Below are positions 295-6,260 of a stretch of 38,344 nucleotides of DNA, piece after piece. Position numbers and translations under genes: made by a program. The DNA is taken from the IMG/VR virus record IMGVR_UViG_3300042507_002915, positions 1 to 38,344 of that record. One strand, 5' to 3'. Position 1 is the stretch's first letter, and each line of letters begins with the position of its first letter. This stretch comes from a virus. A model generated the notes under the pieces. It had not been told where the DNA came from. It did not search any database and saw nothing but the letters and a program-made list of their open reading frames with translations.

Positions 295-929
295 TCATCG
301 AAAGTCGGGATGTCCGAATGCGGCCATTGTTCGGCGGTCCGCTTCGGAAAGGTGGGCGAATTCAGGCGGTACAGGTTTCGGCGCGAGAGCTTCGACGTAC
401 ACCTCAAACGCGCGCGTCTGGTCGCTGGCGGAACGGCTCGCGATCAGTGCTGCAGGACGGTGAAAGCGATGGAAGTCGTCGAACGGATACAGCACGTAGA
501 ACGATCGCCATGCATCGAGCTCGGCCGCGCTCAGGCGGTCGATCTCGGCAAGCGATTTTCCGAGGGCAAGGCCTAGGATGCAGCGGAACCAGTGCTCTCC
601 GCGGCGGGCGTATTCGCTTTTCCCGGCGCGCGGTTGACCTCCAGCACCGCCGGCAGGAGTGCGGCGACGCCGGCCGCGGTGAGGTTTCGGGCTTGCTCGA
701 AAGTGAGCACGGTGCCGCCGGACTCGTCGCACAGGCAGCGAGCGATGAGGCGCTGTTGCGCCTGCGTCCGCAGGTCCGCGTTGGGGCTCTTGCGCTCCTC
801 TTGTAACTTTGCGAGGTCCTGCGCGGAGAGCTGGCGGAAGTGCAGGGTTTCGACACTGCCGTCCGGCATCGTGACCTGTTGCGGGATCGGTGTTGCGCTG
901 ATGAACAGCGCGGGATTGAGCTTTGTCAT
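295..929 (-). CDS. Tail assembly chaperone GT fusion (by -1 frameshift), allele A
   Basis: Long product of the G/T tail chaperone pair. Ribosomes start at 929 in the G frame, slip back one base at 618-624 and continue in the T frame to a stop at 295, giving about 210 residues. In lambda, gpG and gpGT coat the tape measure and recruit tail tube subunits, and are absent from the virion. The T part has no plausible independent start: its open frame upstream of the slip site reads only low-complexity shadow sequence. It ends with ...AAFGHPDFR. Position between tail tube and tape measure is diagnostic. Confidence 0.82.
573..929 (-). CDS. Tail assembly chaperone, short form (gpG-like), allele A
   Basis: 118 residues, starting MTKLNPALF and ending ESTGSAAS. 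It lies directly downstream of the tail tube gene and overlaps the T frame, the universal siphovirus arrangement. This unslipped product should be the major species. Nothing resembling a catalytic motif is visible, as expected for an assembly chaperone. The allele-B copy at 37423-37779 differs at seven residues, all in the first two thirds; the stretch around the slip site is unchanged. Confidence 0.82.
   Translation of the reverse strand: MTKLNPALFISATPIPQQVTMPDGSVETLHFRQLSAQDLAKLQEERKSPNADLRTQAQQRLIARCLCDESGGTVLTFEQARNLTAAGVAALLPAVLEVNRAPGKANTPAAESTGSAAS
618..624 (-). other. Slippery heptamer G GGA AAA (-1 frameshift site)
   Basis: On the minus strand the G frame reads CCG GGA AAA GCG. Slipping back one base gives GGG AAA AGC and enters the T frame exactly where its protein similarity begins. 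This fits the X XXY YYZ rule and resembles lambda's GGGAAAG. The same heptamer is kept in allele B. Confidence 0.82.
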
Positions 930-943
930 GTGGCCTCTTTCGG

Positions 944-1438
944 TTACGGAGCGGGTGCGTTGAAGGCCCAGTTTACGGCGCCGGACCTCTGCAGCGTCAT
1001 CGTGCCGCGCACGATCTCATTGGTCGCGATGTCGAAATTCAGATCCGCGATGTAGGCATTGAACTTCGCGGACGTGCGGCCGTCGGGGGCGACCAGCGAA
1101 TCGGAGCTATCGAGCGTCGGGTCTGCGGTTCCCTCGCTAAGGCAGACCATCCACTCGACGATATCGCCGGCGTCGCGCAAATCGATCAGGAATTGATGCG
1201 AGGAATTCGTGGGAATGAAGTTGAACGGAACGGACACCTGCCCTGGATTTCCGAGTCCGCGGGCGTACTCGCGGTCGACGGTCGTATCCAGGCACGTGGT
1301 TTCGATCTGGTCGGCGGCGCCGCCCAGTCCGGTGATTCCCGTGGGGCAGGCCATCTTGAGCACCCCCGCAACGCTGGACGAAAGTGCGTCGACGGTGAAA
1401 AGCTCGGTTCCTTGGGTTTTGACGGTGCCGGTGGTCAT
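944..1438 (-). CDS. Major tail tube protein, allele A
   Basis: 164 residues starting MTTGTVKTQGTELF. It has the typical size of a siphoviral tail tube subunit and sits between a tail completion gene and the frameshifted chaperones. The C-terminal half (NAYIADLNFDIATNEIVRG) is a beta-rich pattern usual for tube proteins. The ATG at 1438 is preceded by AGAGGAT, a good ribosome site. The upstream in-frame extension to 1513 has no ribosome site and overlaps the neighbour, so I rejected it. A second allele lies at 37827-38321. Confidence 0.85.
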   Translation of the reverse strand: MTTGTVKTQGTELFTVDALSSSVAGVLKMACPTGITGLGGAADQIETTCLDTTVDREYARGLGNPGQVSVPFNFIPTNSSHQFLIDLRDAGDIVEWMVCLSEGTADPTLDSSDSLVAPDGRTSAKFNAYIADLNFDIATNEIVRGTMTLQRSGAVNWAFNAPAP

Positions 1439-1475: not shown

Positions 1476-1829
1476 TCATCGCCGGGTGATGAAATCGGCT
1501 TCGAGCCCGACACGGTACAGTCGGGTTTCCGTATCGCGGTTGGTCAGGATGATGCGGCTGACGATCAGCTCAGAATCAAGCGCGGCGCGAACGGCGACGG
1601 CCAGTGCCTCGACAGTCGCCTGGTCGGCGGCGTAGCAATCGATCTGCGTCGTGGTGAAGTCCGAGCCTGGCGCATTGCTCAGGTTGTCGTGCGCGACGCC
1701 GGCGACGACCTGCCATACGACATAGGGTCGCGCCTCAGTCTGCGCGACCTCGCCGTGCCGGCCGATGCGGTCGTCGACGATCGCCTCGACCTCCGAGGTC
1801 CGCAGTGTTTGGTAGACCGGCGGGAACAT
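1476..1829 (-). CDS. Tail completion / terminator protein, DUF3168-like
   Basis: 117 residues starting MFPPVYQTLRTSEVEAIV, with PYVVWQVVAGVAHDN and later QIDCYAADQATVEALAVAVRAAL. This is the layout of DUF3168 (SPP1 gp17 / lambda gpU-like) proteins that cap the tail and join it to the head. The start overlaps the stop of the gp10-like gene by one base, pointing to translational coupling. Assignment rests on pattern and position. Confidence 0.75.
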   Translation of the reverse strand: MFPPVYQTLRTSEVEAIVDDRIGRHGEVAQTEARPYVVWQVVAGVAHDNLSNAPGSDFTTTQIDCYAADQATVEALAVAVRAALDSELIVSRIILTNRDTETRLYRVGLEADFITRR

Positions 1830-2308
1830 CAGCGCGCACCCGCTGCCAGTTTCGCGACGACCTTGTCGGTCTGCTTGATGAGTTCGACGGTGGCCACGTC
1901 GATCACCTGCTCGCCGACCTCGGCAAGAGCCGGCCGCAGCCACGGCGTCGCGGGCTGGTGGACGCTGCCGTACTCCAGCAGGTTCGCGGTCATGAGCGGA
2001 TTCGTGCGGATGCCGAGCGCGTTGATGTAGTCGCGCTTCTTGACCCGGACGAGATATCGCTCTCCGCGGCCACCGAACGGGGCTTTGCCGCGCGTCGCGA
2101 CGATCCGCTTTTCGAGAGACCCAGTAGAACGCTCGCCGTTCTGCGCGATCGCGGCGCGCAGGTTCTGCTTGGCCCGGTTGCGCAGCAGCCTCGCGCCCTT
2201 CGCGAGCGCCAGCTTTACCGGGCCGCCGCGCTTGCTGACGACCTCGGCAGGCAGCTTGTTCAGCACCGCGAGCAGCGCGCGCGTGTCGGTTTTCAGCTCG
2301 AACTGCAT
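1829..2308 (-). CDS. Head-tail joining / tail component, HK97 gp10-like
   Basis: 159 residues starting MQFELKTDTRALLAVLNKLP, with GARLLRNRAKQNLRAAI, a basic middle part, and NLLEYGSVHQPATPWLRPAL near the C terminus. The (E)YGS...(A)..PWLRPA signature is typical of HK97 gp10 family proteins that act at the neck during head-tail joining. The start lies inside the end of the GT2 gene (stop at 2293), so the two overlap by 16 bases. Confidence 0.8.
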   Translation of the reverse strand: MQFELKTDTRALLAVLNKLPAEVVSKRGGPVKLALAKGARLLRNRAKQNLRAAIAQNGERSTGSLEKRIVATRGKAPFGGRGERYLVRVKKRDYINALGIRTNPLMTANLLEYGSVHQPATPWLRPALAEVGEQVIDVATVELIKQTDKVVAKLAAGAR

Positions 2309-2985
2309 AGCAACTCCTCCGCGTCGTCGCCGACCCATTCGCGCAGCAGCGCGCCGGTCGGGTCGGCGGTGCCGCTGAATCCCTCGGCGTGCCCCATGCC
2401 GATACCGCCGCGCCCGGGCAGGCCTTTCAGGCCGACGACGCGATGGCCCGGGAACAGGCGCTTGTCTGGCGCTCGGCGCCATAGCTCGATGTCGAGAAAG
2501 GTCTGGCCGGTCTGGCAGACCCCGCGAAACAGGGCCAGCGCCCGACCGCGCATCGCGGTCGCACACAAGCTGGCGTGGTGCGCGTTCGAAAGCTGGCGGC
2601 CGACGCGCCGCGGGATGTTGTAGTAGCGGGCCCGCGGCTCGCCGACCAGCTCCGCGCGATCCAGCTCCGCGGCGACCGTCGCCAGCCAGTCGGCGGCGTA
2701 ATGGTCGTCGTCCTCGATGATGGCGACCCGCTCGCCGGCGCCGATCCGGGCCAGCCCTGCGCGTAGGTTGCGCGCCTGGGTGTTCTGGTCCGGTTGCCAG
2801 TGCGGCGTCGGCCGGACGATCTCCAGCGCCCAGCCGTCGCGCTGGAACGTCACCGGCTGCGGCTCGGGGCCGTCGTCGACGATGACCCAGCGCACGGGGC
2901 CGGCGTAGGTCTGGCGCGTCATCAGGCGTTCACAGCGCGCCCATGCTTCGGGGCGGGCGCCGGTGGCGGTGAGCAAGGTCAGCAT
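2293..2985 (-). CDS. Glycosyltransferase family 2-like protein
   Basis: 230 residues. The N terminus (MLTLLTATGARPEAWARCERLM) leads to a GT-A beta strand with VIVDDG at about 35-40, then RNLRAGL, then AIIEDDDHYAADW at about 88-100, where the acidic triplet is the expected metal/nucleotide-sugar site. That combination is the family 2 glycosyltransferase core. It overlaps the methyltransferase gene by seven bases. Glycosyltransferases are not needed for HK97 head or tail assembly, so this is cargo. Possible targets are a virion protein or a cell-surface sugar; the acceptor cannot be read from sequence. Confidence 0.72.
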   Translation of the reverse strand: MLTLLTATGARPEAWARCERLMTRQTYAGPVRWVIVDDGPEPQPVTFQRDGWALEIVRPTPHWQPDQNTQARNLRAGLARIGAGERVAIIEDDDHYAADWLATVAAELDRAELVGEPRARYYNIPRRVGRQLSNAHHASLCATAMRGRALALFRGVCQTGQTFLDIELWRRAPDKRLFPGHRVVGLKGLPGRGGIGMGHAEGFSGTADPTGALLREWVGDDAEELLCSSS

Positions 2986-3557
2986 GTGGGCGCCTCGGCA
3001 GCCGCGAAAACGTGCATCGGGATCAAGCGTCGGACGCGGCCGGGCTCGCCGTGATCGTTCAGTTCGACGGGGACCTCGCCGGCGGCAGCCGTCTCGATGC
3101 CGACGAGCCCGGCGTCCTCCAGCAGCGCGCGCAAGCCGGACTCGGTGAACCGGTAGAAGTCATCAGGAAACCCGTGGATCGGGAACGCGGTCAACGTCGT
3201 GACGATCAGCGTGCCGCCGGGACGCAGGACGCGGCGCAGCTCGGGCAGCGCCACCCACGGCCGGCGGACGTGCTCCAGGACTTCGGAGCACAGCACGCTC
3301 GAGAACCGGCCGGACCATTCGGCCGGCAGCGCGTGAATGTCGGCGACCTCGTCGACGCCCGGGCCGGGCTGCATGTCGATGCCAAGCCAGTCGCCGCGGG
3401 CAAGGTCGCGATTGCTCAGCCACCACGCCCCCGGCACGTGCTGACGGCTGCCGACTTCGAGAACGACGTCGCCGAGGCGGCCGGCGTGGCGATCGATCCA
3501 GCCGCGAACCCGGCCGCGGACGCTGGTCGGCGGCAGCGGCTTGCGGTCACTGACCAT
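2979..3557 (-). CDS. SAM-dependent methyltransferase (Methyltransf_11-like)
   Basis: 192 residues. Motif I is VLEVGS at about 32-37, the strand-2 acidic residue lies in GIDMQPG, and ADIHALP, SSVLCSEVLEHV and RRVLRPGGTLIVTT follow in the order of class I SAM methyltransferases of the Methyltransf_11 type. FPDDFYRFTESGLRALLEDAG is common in sugar-biosynthesis methyltransferases. It lies between head-closure and glycosyltransferase genes and overlaps both, so it should be translated with them. No target-recognition domain for DNA is seen, so a small-molecule or glycan substrate is more likely than DNA. Confidence 0.8.
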   Translation of the reverse strand: MVSDRKPLPPTSVRGRVRGWIDRHAGRLGDVVLEVGSRQHVPGAWWLSNRDLARGDWLGIDMQPGPGVDEVADIHALPAEWSGRFSSVLCSEVLEHVRRPWVALPELRRVLRPGGTLIVTTLTAFPIHGFPDDFYRFTESGLRALLEDAGLVGIETAAAGEVPVELNDHGEPGRVRRLIPMHVFAAAEAPTC

Positions 3558-3906
3558 CGCTCACCCCCTCGGCGCAGCGGATACGCCACTCGCGGCGGCC
3601 GGTGATATCGGTTTCCGCGGTCTCGATGCCGTAGATTCGCCCGTTCCACAAGATCCGCCACGACGGCGAAAGCCCCGGGAACCATCGGACCACGATGCGC
3701 GCCGCGGTCGTCGCCTGTTTCTGACCGGACTCCAAGAATTCGCGCCCCGGCCCGGTCAGCACTTCGGCCGGCACCGAATCGAGCGGCGCCCCGGAGTCCA
3801 GCGCGGCCGTCTCCCAGGTCGTCACCGCCCGGCCTTCGCTGTCGCGGACCGTGGTCTGCGCCTGGAACTCGACGCGGTGCCGGAGGCGTGCGGACAGGTC
3901 GGTCAC
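3547..3906 (-). CDS. Head closure / head-tail adaptor (SPP1 gp16-like)
   Basis: 119 residues starting MTDLSARLRHRVEFQAQTTV. The N-terminal LRHRVEFQ...D..G...TTWE followed by ARIVVRWFPGL and a short C-terminal strand region (ILWNGRIYGIE) matches the PF05521 head-tail adaptor fold. The protein sits below the connector in the neck and closes the filled head. The gene follows the connector gene with one base between them. Confidence 0.85.
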   Translation of the reverse strand: MTDLSARLRHRVEFQAQTTVRDSEGRAVTTWETAALDSGAPLDSVPAEVLTGPGREFLESGQKQATTAARIVVRWFPGLSPSWRILWNGRIYGIETAETDITGRREWRIRCAEGVSDGQ

Positions 3907-3907
3907 G

Positions 3908-4261
3908 TCAGACCCCCAGTCGCGCGCGGTACGGCATGAGCTTGATCTCGGCCGCGCGCCGATATCCGCTCATGTCGGCGGGCGTCATGGCTTCGTAGCT
4001 CGCTTTGACGAGCAGGATCACACCCTCGACCACGGCCGGCGCAACGGGGTCCTCGCTGCTCGGCGTTTCCTCGCTCACTTCGCTGCTGCTCGAATCGTAG
4101 ACCGGCGGATATTCGAGGGGCAGCGTCGGCAGCCGCTCGCGATTCATGAACCGCAGCGCCTCATCCTCGGCGCCATCGAGCGCGGTCTGCAGCGTGGCGT
4201 CGTCGGCGTCGTGGATCACGCGCAGCCGCGCCTTGATCGTCGAGAGCGGGATCACGCTCAT
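3908..4261 (-). CDS. Head-tail connector (HK97 gp6-like)
   Basis: 117 residues starting MSVIPLSTIKARLRVIHDADDATL, the hallmark N terminus of the gp6/YqbG-like connector family, followed by a helix DGAEDEALRFMN and a C-terminal helix VVEGVILLVKASYEAM. A Ser/Glu-rich loop (SSSSEVSEETPSSEDP) separates the helices. It forms a ring under the portal. The start overlaps the stop of the upstream MptE-like gene (ATGA). The ORF extends further upstream but lacks a ribosome site. Confidence 0.85.
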   Translation of the reverse strand: MSVIPLSTIKARLRVIHDADDATLQTALDGAEDEALRFMNRERLPTLPLEYPPVYDSSSSEVSEETPSSEDPVAPAVVEGVILLVKASYEAMTPADMSGYRRAAEIKLMPYRARLGV

Positions 4262-4737
4262 GCGATGCAGTCCTCCAGCTTGGCGCGCGGGAAGGCGTCG
4301 AGCGCCGTCTCGCGCGTGCAATTGATGATTTCCAGCCGCGGGAACGCTTCCCGCAGCTTTCGGAACTGTGCCGGCCACTTCGCCACCGTCTGGGGCGCAG
4401 CGTTGCCGGCCGTGCCCGGCGGGTGGTCGCCGTGCCAGTGCCGGCGGCCGTCCGCGGCGTGTCGGCAGTCATAGCCCAGCAGCAGCACCCGGGTCGCGCC
4501 GGACAGGGCCGCCACCGCGATCGCACCCGCACCACTGTTGCCGAATGCCGACCAGTCCCTGCGGACCGATCGCATCGATCGCGCGCCGTGCGGGACACAG
4601 TCGCCGCCGTAGCCCAGGCACTCTCCGCGGAAGTCGCGCCGCACCTCGGCCGCGTGAATCTTCCACCACGCGCCGTCCATCGCGAAGAGAGAGTCCGCCC
4701 ACGGCGCGAGCCGGAATGAGGTGTTGGCCGCGATCAC
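4258..4737 (-). CDS. MptE/DUF115-like protein, N-terminally short
   Basis: 159 residues. IAANTSFRLAPWADSLFAMDGAWW, then FGNSGAGAIAVAALSGATRVLLLGYDC, a W-H-G-D-H motif, and EIINCTRETALDAFPRA. This resembles phage and bacterial proteins related to the 6-hydroxymethylpterin pyrophosphokinase MptE / DUF115 group, which are often found with glycan-modification genes. Relatives usually begin with a nucleotide-binding GGGPSL-type strand; that part is absent, so the gene may be truncated or may use another fold edge. It is not a standard head gene. I regard it as part of a three-gene cassette with the methyltransferase and GT2. Confidence 0.6.
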   Translation of the reverse strand: MIAANTSFRLAPWADSLFAMDGAWWKIHAAEVRRDFRGECLGYGGDCVPHGARSMRSVRRDWSAFGNSGAGAIAVAALSGATRVLLLGYDCRHAADGRRHWHGDHPPGTAGNAAPQTVAKWPAQFRKLREAFPRLEIINCTRETALDAFPRAKLEDCIA

Positions 4738-5039
4738 GCGGCGTCCTTCTTGCGCGGCTTCGCGCCACCGGCGGACGGCGTCGCAGTCGTCTGCGGTGAG
4801 GCTTGGGCCACTGGCGATGCAGACGACAGTTGCGCCTCGCCAGCGGCCCGCGAAGGGATTGCTGGCGCGGCCGGCGCCTGCGTCACAACCTTGGTCTCGT
4901 ACTCGTCCGGCGACGCGGCGCGGACGAGGCCGAGCCTGATCAGCCGCGCCGCCTCCGCGTCGGGCAGATCATAGCCGCGCCCGGCGAGCATCTGCCCGCG
5001 GCGATCGTGCGGAAACGACTTGATGGGAGTGACCCACAT
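4734..5039 (-). CDS. Hypothetical head-region protein with Ala/Pro/Ser-rich tail
   Basis: 101 residues. MWVTPIKSFPHDRRGQMLAGRGYDLPDAEAARLIRLGLVR is a compact N-terminal domain. From about residue 55 the protein becomes Ala/Ser/Pro/Thr-rich and ends in KPRKKDAA. Proteins with this N-terminal pattern are frequent just downstream of HK97-type capsid genes, with no assigned role. The stop overlaps the next start. A disordered, basic C terminus may dock on a head protein, but that is a guess. Confidence 0.7.
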   Translation of the reverse strand: MWVTPIKSFPHDRRGQMLAGRGYDLPDAEAARLIRLGLVRAASPDEYETKVVTQAPAAPAIPSRAAGEAQLSSASPVAQASPQTTATPSAGGAKPRKKDAA

Positions 5040-5087: not shown

Positions 5088-6260
5088 TCAGGCCGTGAAC
5101 GCGCCGCCGAGGATCGCGGACGGCGTGCTGATTTCGAACGCCATGCGCATTTCTGCGCGCAGCGTGACCAGGTTCTTCAGGAAGTCGTCGTCGGCATAGC
5201 CGGCCTCGACCGTGACCGACTGGCGATCCCACACGGTCACGGCGCGCGCGAACGCCCCGATCGCGAACTGACCTCGCGGCACGAAGGGCGACGGGATGAT
5301 CCGGACGTTGAACGGGTTGGTGTTCAGCATCACGCCCGGAAGGCCGTTCAGATAGTGGCCATCGCTGCCCTTCTGGAGCTCCATGTCACCCCAGTCCTGC
5401 GGGTTGACGTAGGCGTTATCCGGCACCCAGCCGGCCGCCCAAAGCTGCCACTTAGCGCGGTTGATGGCGTCGATCAGGTTGTCGTCGCTGGTCGGGGTGT
5501 AGACGGTGTAATTGCCCGAGTCCAGGATGCCCGACAGGTTGGGACTGGTGCCATTGCCGACCATCAACTGGCGATCGACGCGCTCCATCACGCCATAGGT
5601 CAGGCGGTTATCGATGTAGGCCGCAACCGCAGGCGCATCGGCCAGCAGGTTCTTGGAGACCTTGAGCCAATGCGGGATCGTGCGCACGGGGTAGTCGTGC
5701 GGTTCGAACGTCAGATCGGACTCGGGCTTGAGCGCGCCTTCGGCCACTTCAGCCGCACTGTTCGTGAAGCTGGCTTCGCGGATGCCCTCGACGGAATTCC
5801 CGGACGCCGGCGCATGCGGCAGCGACCCGTAGATCGTGAGCGGCTTGAATGCGCCGCCGGTGACGCCCGGGATCTGCTGCGCCAGCACCGTGTTGCCGTT
5901 GGACAGGATCGTGTTCTTCACCTCAATGCGACAGCGGGTCGGCTCGTCGGTGCGCATGGACTTGAACTGATCGCTGAACGCGAACTGTTCGCCGATGGTG
6001 CGGGTCTCGACCGCCGACGCCACCGAGACGCCTTTTTGCTCGATCTCGCGCATGCGCGCGTTCAGTGCCTCGATGGTCGCGGCCTGCTTTTCGAGCGCAG
6101 ATTTGAGTTCGGGCGCGATGTCGCCGCTCGCCTTGACGGCGGTCTCGGCCTTCATCAGCAGATCGGCGGCCTTCTTTTCGACATCGCGCAATTCGCCCTT
6201 GATCTCGGTGCGGAGCGCGTCGATGCCTTCGGTTATGGCCGTGGTGATTTCGTTCGCCAT
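5088..6260 (-). CDS. Major capsid protein, HK97 gp5 type
   Basis: 390 residues. Residues 1 to about 80 are a charged helical/coiled-coil segment (ELRDVEKKAADLLMKAE, ALEKQAATIEALNARM) matching the delta scaffolding domain that the prohead protease removes. The rest has HK97-fold features: PLTIYGSLP, SDLTFEPHDYPVRTIPHWLKVSKNLL, an E-loop/A-domain run, and VTVEAGYADDDFLKNLVTLRAE near the end. The order portal, protease, capsid directly upstream is the canonical HK97 arrangement. Whether chainmail crosslinking residues are kept cannot be judged without an alignment. Confidence 0.92.
   Translation of the reverse strand: MANEITTAITEGIDALRTEIKGELRDVEKKAADLLMKAETAVKASGDIAPELKSALEKQAATIEALNARMREIEQKGVSVASAVETRTIGEQFAFSDQFKSMRTDEPTRCRIEVKNTILSNGNTVLAQQIPGVTGGAFKPLTIYGSLPHAPASGNSVEGIREASFTNSAAEVAEGALKPESDLTFEPHDYPVRTIPHWLKVSKNLLADAPAVAAYIDNRLTYGVMERVDRQLMVGNGTSPNLSGILDSGNYTVYTPTSDDNLIDAINRAKWQLWAAGWVPDNAYVNPQDWGDMELQKGSDGHYLNGLPGVMLNTNPFNVRIIPSPFVPRGQFAIGAFARAVTVWDRQSVTVEAGYADDDFLKNLVTLRAEMRMAFEISTPSAILGGAFTA

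Follow-up and report, generated by a model that had tools for sequence, protein, structure and literature searches.

In phage lambda, a -1 frameshift between the overlapping open reading frames (ORFs) of gpG and gpGT in the virion operon yields a short protein and a rarer long fusion. Recoding in Lactobacillus phage A2, T3, and Listeria phage PSA likewise extends a protein of the virion operon at its C terminus, in these phages the major capsid or a tail protein (PMC5009743). Here, we analyzed a 38,344-nucleotide stretch of viral DNA (IMG/VR record IMGVR_UViG_3300042507_002915, positions 1 to 38,344; the window) in which a DUF115/MptE-like gene lies downstream of the major capsid gene. Comparison of this gene with its relatives points to a conserved programmed -1 frameshift, which very probably produces a DUF7210-DUF115 fusion. 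Compared with lambda, the genes and the slip motif are different, the extension is enzyme-like, and the window has a separate gpG-GT pair; compared with A2, T3, and PSA, the extension is DUF115. The proposal also recalls retroviral Gag-Pol, by analogy only, in that an enzyme would be fused at a low ratio to a structural-type domain through a slippery site and a structure. There is no homology to Gag-Pol, and packaging of the enzyme in the window phage is a proposal.

Phage D3 (Detrevirus) resembles the window in the gene order and -1 overlap of orf6.5-orf7 and, together with orf12/orf13, in having DUF115 and a methyltransferase (MT) in the neck region. The D3 slip site is C_CCA_AAG. However, D3 is annotated as two genes with no frameshift in the record, and its glycosyltransferase (GT) is GT9-like, not GT2-like. 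In P1 and P7 (pmgN-pmgO-pmgP-ppp-pmgQ; hdmA-D), DUF115 (PmgO/HdmB) is also grouped with a GT (PmgQ), and a second MptE-like protein (PmgP) is present. Unlike in the window, DUF115 there has its own ATG, no C_CCN site, and no detected DUF7210-like partner, and it is not among the head-tail joining genes. A tiny gene (pmgN or hdmA) does overlap the DUF115 5' end in P1 and P7, in a +1 relation. In mycobacteriophages, capsid glycosylation has been linked to phage GTs, and in the GT-encoding phages Che8 and Rita glycans were measured on the capsid protein (PMC11256854), whereas the window is known from its genes alone; no DUF115 fusion is reported in that system. A preliminary description of the window had singled out the glycan-type cassette among the neck genes as its best candidate for an undescribed system. 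The layout itself is visible in the annotated phages D3, Psp6, and PAJU2, but the slip signal appears to be new: the open-licence papers searched contained no account of frameshifting that concerns DUF115, D3, or a phage GT. Even in phages as well known as D3, it seems that a conserved recoding site has gone unnoticed.

The preliminary description had started the DUF115 gene at GTG 4737. The gene is present, but this 5' end is wrong, as it omits strand beta-1 and the invariant GPSL motif. The DUF115 frame stays open for about 77 more codons 5' of 4737 and encodes VVCIASGPSLTADDC just upstream of that position. SGPSL, right after the first strand, is invariant in 14/14 DUF115 family members. 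There is no ATG, GTG, or TTG in this upstream extension in the window, where it overlaps gene 4734-5039 in the -1 frame. We surveyed 95 loci whose DUF115 proteins are <90% identical in amino acid sequence. At 72 of them DUF115 overlaps an upstream post-capsid ORF (the overlap type), with the -1 relation in 72/72. No ATG, GTG, or TTG precedes the motif in 59 of these 72, and 10 also lack near-cognate starts. A -1-frame stop closely precedes the slip site, by a few codons, at L013, L017, and L051, of which L013 also has no near-cognate start. In D3 and some relatives there is a nonconserved GTG or TTG 20 codons ahead of the motif. D3 orf7 shows the same split, as does Psp6, which is annotated from a GTG near the position of the window's internal GTG. 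Because the startless -1 split is shared by isolates, prophages, and metagenomes from a wide range of hosts, we rejected a sequencing error or pseudogene as its cause. A non-AUG start for the long form was rejected as a general cause because of the 10 loci without even near-cognate codons. The predicted slip site hides the start of the enzyme, including GPSL, so that proteins in databases are cut short or begin at an improbable codon. Public annotations of D3 (L002, 4741-5459) and vB_PaeS-D14C (L223, 1253-1959) shorten DUF115 so that GPSL is lost, the D14C gene being annotated from a farther downstream start; both need re-annotation.

The slip site is found at a narrow range of positions. C_CCN occurs at codons -12 to -14 before the motif in 61/72 overlap-type loci, compared with 0 to 4 of 72 for each upstream codon position, and in 0/23 homologues with their own start (Fisher 4e-14 versus the overlap type; the loci are related by descent, so that this and the other P value below overstate independence). 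Strict X_XXY_YYZ heptamers in the 0 frame numbered 26 at codon offsets -14, -13, and -12 versus 14 at the other 62 offsets. With clustering at 60%, 38/56 loci were of the overlap type, and CCC stood at the three positions in 28/38, versus 18 hits over 25 upstream positions. For slip-site variant counts, we aligned 55 loci on the hairpin described below. Tetramers without a heptamer were C_CCT (24 loci) and C_CCC (16), C_CCT heptamers numbered 11, and C_CCA was seen only as CCCAAAG (4 of 55). A close relative of the window, L010, carries the full heptamer CCCTTTG. In Escherichia coli, C_CC.U and C_CC.C are prone to slip, C_CCA and C_CCG barely do so, and C_CC.A_AA.G is among the most efficient heptamers, at 54% with a strong stimulator (PMC4066793). 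The slip-site variant pattern agrees with these measurements.

We then compared conservation in the two frames. Identity of -1-frame residues is about 0.12 over the 15 codons before the slip and rises to 0.80 to 0.96 at RW and 1.00 at ASGPSL, a rise that takes a few codons from the slip codon (which was used to select loci, so that its own value is uninformative). The 0-frame identity under ASGPSL is 0.5 to 0.75. This jump indicates that the DUF115 frame is being read from roughly the slip codon onward. The overlap type accounts for 69/71 loci in which DUF115 comes after the capsid gene and for 0/10 in which it comes after the head-tail adaptor (Ad1) or head closure (Hc1) gene; at the latter, DUF115 always has its own start. 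At L156 the donor-like gene ends before DUF115, which there also has its own start. In L010 (IMGVR_UViG_3300034104_002243, about 2843-3523), a long insert follows WR of DUF115, and the slip site and hairpin are kept.

The stem of the hairpin, GGCCGCTGGCGA/TCGCCAGCGGCC, has 12 to 13 bp and starts about 2 nucleotides past the heptamer position, with its GCTGGC core 6 nucleotides past. In the window its energy is -32.3 kcal/mol (z -4.3), and the mean z over the 55 loci is -3.26. No hairpin is seen in the same stretch of the 23 own-start loci (z 0.27 versus -2.17, P = 2.8e-9). Pair 11-45 covaries (GC, AU, CG, GU), as does pair 20-42 in the longer class (GC, AU, GU), and the covariation score was reached by 0/500 shuffles in one hairpin class and 5/500 in the other.

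The overlap, slip motif, hairpin, and conservation can be read from the sequences; from them we infer the slipping itself and its rate. Ribosomes on 4734-5039 would meet C_CC.U at 4857-4851 and then the hairpin (arms 4848-4837 and 4817-4806). A minority would slip back one base into the -1 frame and make a predicted 260-amino-acid protein (4858-5039 joined to 4258-4857), in which a DUF7210-like part (62 amino acids) precedes the complete DUF115/MptE-like domain, while the majority would remain in the 0 frame and make the 101-amino-acid protein. Since most ribosomes would stay in frame, we propose that the site keeps the enzyme at a low, fixed ratio to its partner. The co-translation with neck proteins that had been noted before undersells this relationship, as DUF115 is probably a -1 frameshift fusion with the upstream gene. 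A homologous donor N-terminal domain is present in 67/72 overlap-type loci. In the donor family, DUF7210 (PF23843) was detected in 10/17 members (best 6.6e-6) and phrog_2616 in 12/17; the window member has no DUF7210 match and matches phrog_2322 and phrog_20799 only. A tblastn search with the 101-amino-acid donor gave no match. The features are listed in Table 1.

Table 1. Coordinates of the predicted recoding site, the neck genes, and their neighbors in the window
Feature	Coordinates	Strand	Evidence or remark
Major capsid protein (HK97 fold)	5088..6260	-	Pfam Phage_capsid 5.9e-34, phrog_10
101-aa (amino acid) putative frameshift donor gene, 0 frame	4734..5039	-	small DUF7210-like N-terminal domain and basic tail
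Putative slip site CCCTTCG	4851..4857	-	C_CC.U tetramer in 0 frame
Predicted stimulatory hairpin, 5' arm	4837..4848	-	GGCCGCTGGCGA
Predicted stimulatory hairpin, 3' arm	4806..4817	-	TCGCCAGTGGCC
ASGPSL motif	4798..4815	-	upstream of GTG 4737
DUF115/MptE-like domain, -1 frame	4258..4857	-	-1-frame conservation from slip codon; structure model pLDDT (predicted local distance difference test) 90.8
DUF115-like, as read from GTG	4258-4737	-	phrog_4603, E 1e-43
Internal GTG	4735..4737	-	Shine-Dalgarno (SD)-like AAGGA upstream; overlaps stop (GTGA) of 4734-5039; would give truncated DUF115
Head-tail adaptor Ad1 (gp6-like connector)	3908..4261	-	Phage_connect_1, phrog_40
Head closure Hc1	3547..3906	-	Phage_HCP 2e-23
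SAM (S-adenosylmethionine)-dependent MT, MT_w module	2979..3557	-	Pfam Methyltransf_11 9.6e-9; recurrent DUF115 neighbor
GT2-like GT candidate, GT2_w module	2293..2985	-	VDDG and EDDDHY motifs; recurrent pairing with MT_w
HK97 gp10-like neck/tail-completion protein	1829..2309	-	position and homology group with D3 orf14
Tail terminator	1476..1829	-	Pfam/PHROG
Tail tube	944-1438	-	Pfam/PHROG

The window genes considered here are all on the - strand, in the order terminase, portal, protease, major capsid protein, 101-amino-acid gene, DUF115-like, Ad1, Hc1, SAM MT, GT2-like, gp10, tail terminator, and tail tube. The gene overlaps measure 4 to 17 bases (ATGA at 4258-4261; MT/Hc1, 3547-3557; GT/MT, 2979-2985; gp10/GT, 2293-2309). 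We have confirmed the claim that MptE/DUF115-like, SAM MT, and GT2-like genes alternate with Ad1, Hc1, and gp10 with small overlaps. This arrangement is far beyond chance, because identical genes recur in identical slots across dozens of phages. The gp10-like protein has no Pfam or PHROG match of its own. An ordinary lambda-type gpG/gpGT tail chaperone frameshift is located at 295-929 (-): the tail assembly chaperone ORF (573-929) contains GGGAAAA as its heptamer (618-624), and the -1 frame holds a T-like ORF (phrog_337) that extends to 295. Beside it is a second short T-like ORF (147-407, -) with a SAAELDAW motif and no family match; the copy at the opposite end of the contig lacks part of this region (135-293). 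Near-duplicate genes for the tail tube and the tail chaperone (96% and 94% identical in amino acids; DNA, 90 to 98%) occupy the two contig ends (1-1455 and 37008-38338), ordered as expected for a genome that wraps round. Rather than a true duplication, this probably reflects a circularly permuted genome that was closed with a variant strain.

We asked what the three accessory proteins resemble. The DUF115 profile (PF01973) matched 12/14 extended relatives (best 4.5e-10), and the window protein itself gave no match at E 0.1. Its structure model has a Rossmann-like DUF115/MptE fold. The best solved match was the Methanocaldococcus jannaschii HPPK/MptE structure 8sd5 (probability 1.00, template modeling score TMq 0.51), and viral MptE-like models matched at a TMq of about 0.65. 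The structure search that had been suggested for the cassette led from DUF115 to the pterin pyrophosphokinase MptE and not to a GT. The label of phrog_4603, also used in RefSeq, is "alpha-2,3-sialyltransferase" (GT42); no sialyltransferase was among the top 50 PDB structure matches of the DUF115 model, and therefore the label is unsupported here. A PDB sequence search with the DUF115 profile returned only ankyrin-type repeat-protein noise. DUF115-like relatives include D3 orf7 and P7 HdmB/P1 PmgO, and at least 589 IMG/VR stretches encode relatives of the family. DUF115 also includes Maf-type flagellin GTs, which makes a sugar transferase plausible.

The gene at 2293-2985 is a candidate GT2-like, GT-A-like protein, as judged from its motifs and linkage. 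It had no Pfam or PHROG match to a GT family; EDDDHY is conserved, and a model built from six close sequences had a pLDDT of 45.7 and was unusable. The MT scored 36.2 bits with Methyltransf_11, against a curated cutoff of 21.2. By BLAST, there was no similarity between the window GT and P7 HdmD or between the window MT and D3 orf13, so that different families occupy the same slots. A tblastn search of isolated phages gave no match to the window GT and three records for the window MT, all of a podovirus-like phage from Manatee Spring that has GT genes close by. One podovirus-like phage (L004, MW202524.1, 886-9717) has a window-like MT in a long GT-type gene run just after the capsid gene.

Over the 95 loci there are four main modules: MT_w+GT2_w (the window), GT9+MT_D3, HdmD, and a second MptE-like protein with HdmD. 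We take HdmD, an annotated GT, to be GT8-like and phrog_6804 (D3 and Psp6) to be GT9-like. Between DUF115 and Ad1 there are 33 module genes, after Hc1 27, and after Ad1 3, and at least one GT or MT module gene was present in the neck slots of 37/48 loci whose neck is fully visible. In D3, Psp6, and PAJU2, DUF115, the GT9-like gene, and an MT (phrog_6564) occupy the same neck region. The comparison bears out the grouping of the three genes: they form a genuine accessory set that recurs with the neck operon, with GTs and MTs swapped as modules in the same slots. The further claim that none is needed for assembly fits the P1 homologues pmgO, pmgP, and pmgQ, which are nonessential in deletion and CRISPR interference data (PMC10695390). 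The nonessential P1 homologues, the module exchange, and the late-operon location favor modification of the particle.

We propose the following role. The DUF115 domain would be a nucleotide-sugar-using transferase, and the DUF7210 part, encoded between the capsid and connector genes, would keep it near the assembling head or neck. DUF115 would begin a glycan on a virion protein, a swappable GT (here GT2-like) would extend it, and the MT would cap it. Whether the cassette glycosylates the virion is, in our estimate, an even call. The explanation as a whole, a frameshift fusion with a virion-glycan role, seems to us somewhat probable. A stronger version is a tentative suggestion at best: in many HK97-type phages, a dedicated recoding site of a further kind, in addition to the frameshifts of tail chaperones and capsid extensions, might tether a DUF115 GT to a head or neck DUF7210-like protein, so that the enzyme is built into or guided to the particle as in a Gag-Pol analogue and the glycan is continued by swappable GT and MT modules.

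Several observations weigh against this explanation. The window slip motif is of the tetramer form only, and in E. coli reporters tetramers reached 0.26 to 5.6% at best (PMC4066793). A clear C_CCN site was not found in L005, L075, L076, L078, L083, or L105, and there was no in-frame DUF7210-DUF115 fusion among the relatives examined. The RNAalifold consensus energy is modest (-4.4), and the hairpin arms also encode conserved -1-frame residues (GRW and IASGP), so not all conservation of the arms is structural. GTG 4737, with its SD, could yield a truncated product in the window, although this start is not conserved among the relatives. The nearest solved structure is a pyrophosphokinase, at a TM of only about 0.5; no recognized GT or MT was seen at 10/48 loci; and it is from gene content that we propose a glycan chemistry, a methyl cap, and a target in the virion.

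We weighed the alternatives to a fusion that modifies the virion. It is unlikely, in our view, that the cassette instead targets host surface or exported glycans, as in serotype conversion, superinfection exclusion, or receptor masking. GT and MT proteins commonly act on lipopolysaccharide, and D3 is known for serotype conversion. However, the genes are located within the late head-tail operon, the modules are confined to neck slots, and DUF115 is predicted to be fused to a post-capsid domain. We consider it decidedly unlikely that the frameshift has no part in glycan modification and serves only to supply assembly with a rare, longer version of the 0-frame protein that it requires. Phage recoding often makes structural variants, such as lambda gpG/gpGT and the A2 and T3 capsids (PMC5009743), and PAJU2 DUF115 carries the unverified label "structural protein," but the extension has an enzyme-like fold with invariant motifs, and DUF115 homologues exist without the fusion. 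Improbable as well is that DUF115 works as a pyrophosphokinase of the MptE type, or as another enzyme that uses nucleotides (with DNA, a cofactor, or a nucleotide as its target, for example), and that the nearby GT and MT act elsewhere. Its only well-matched solved structure, 8sd5, would suit such a role; however, DUF115 is recurrently linked to several unrelated GT types and not to pterin or nucleotide genes, and a second MptE-like copy is often found beside GTs, as with P1 pmgP. Finally, it is very improbable that there is no frameshift and that coupled re-initiation makes a shorter DUF115 alone, with incidental upstream -1 conservation: GTG 4737 overlaps the upstream stop behind AAGGA and Psp6 and D3 are annotated from a nearby GTG and from ATC, but the product would lack beta-1 and GPSL, no internal start precedes PWAD in 47/72 relatives and only 3/72 have one with an SD, the D3 annotation had to resort to an ATC codon for orf7, and the C_CCN site, the hairpin, and their absence from own-start homologues would be left unexplained.

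The predicted frameshift site for the DUF7210-DUF115 fusion gives a clear handle on a widespread gene family, and through it one can test whether particle assembly in phages is coupled to an enzyme that modifies sugars. If the stronger version of the proposal is true, the neck or head of phage particles would bear a swappable sugar coat with methyl caps. Glycosylation of virions, if real, would have consequences for adsorption and immune recognition as well as for phage therapy.

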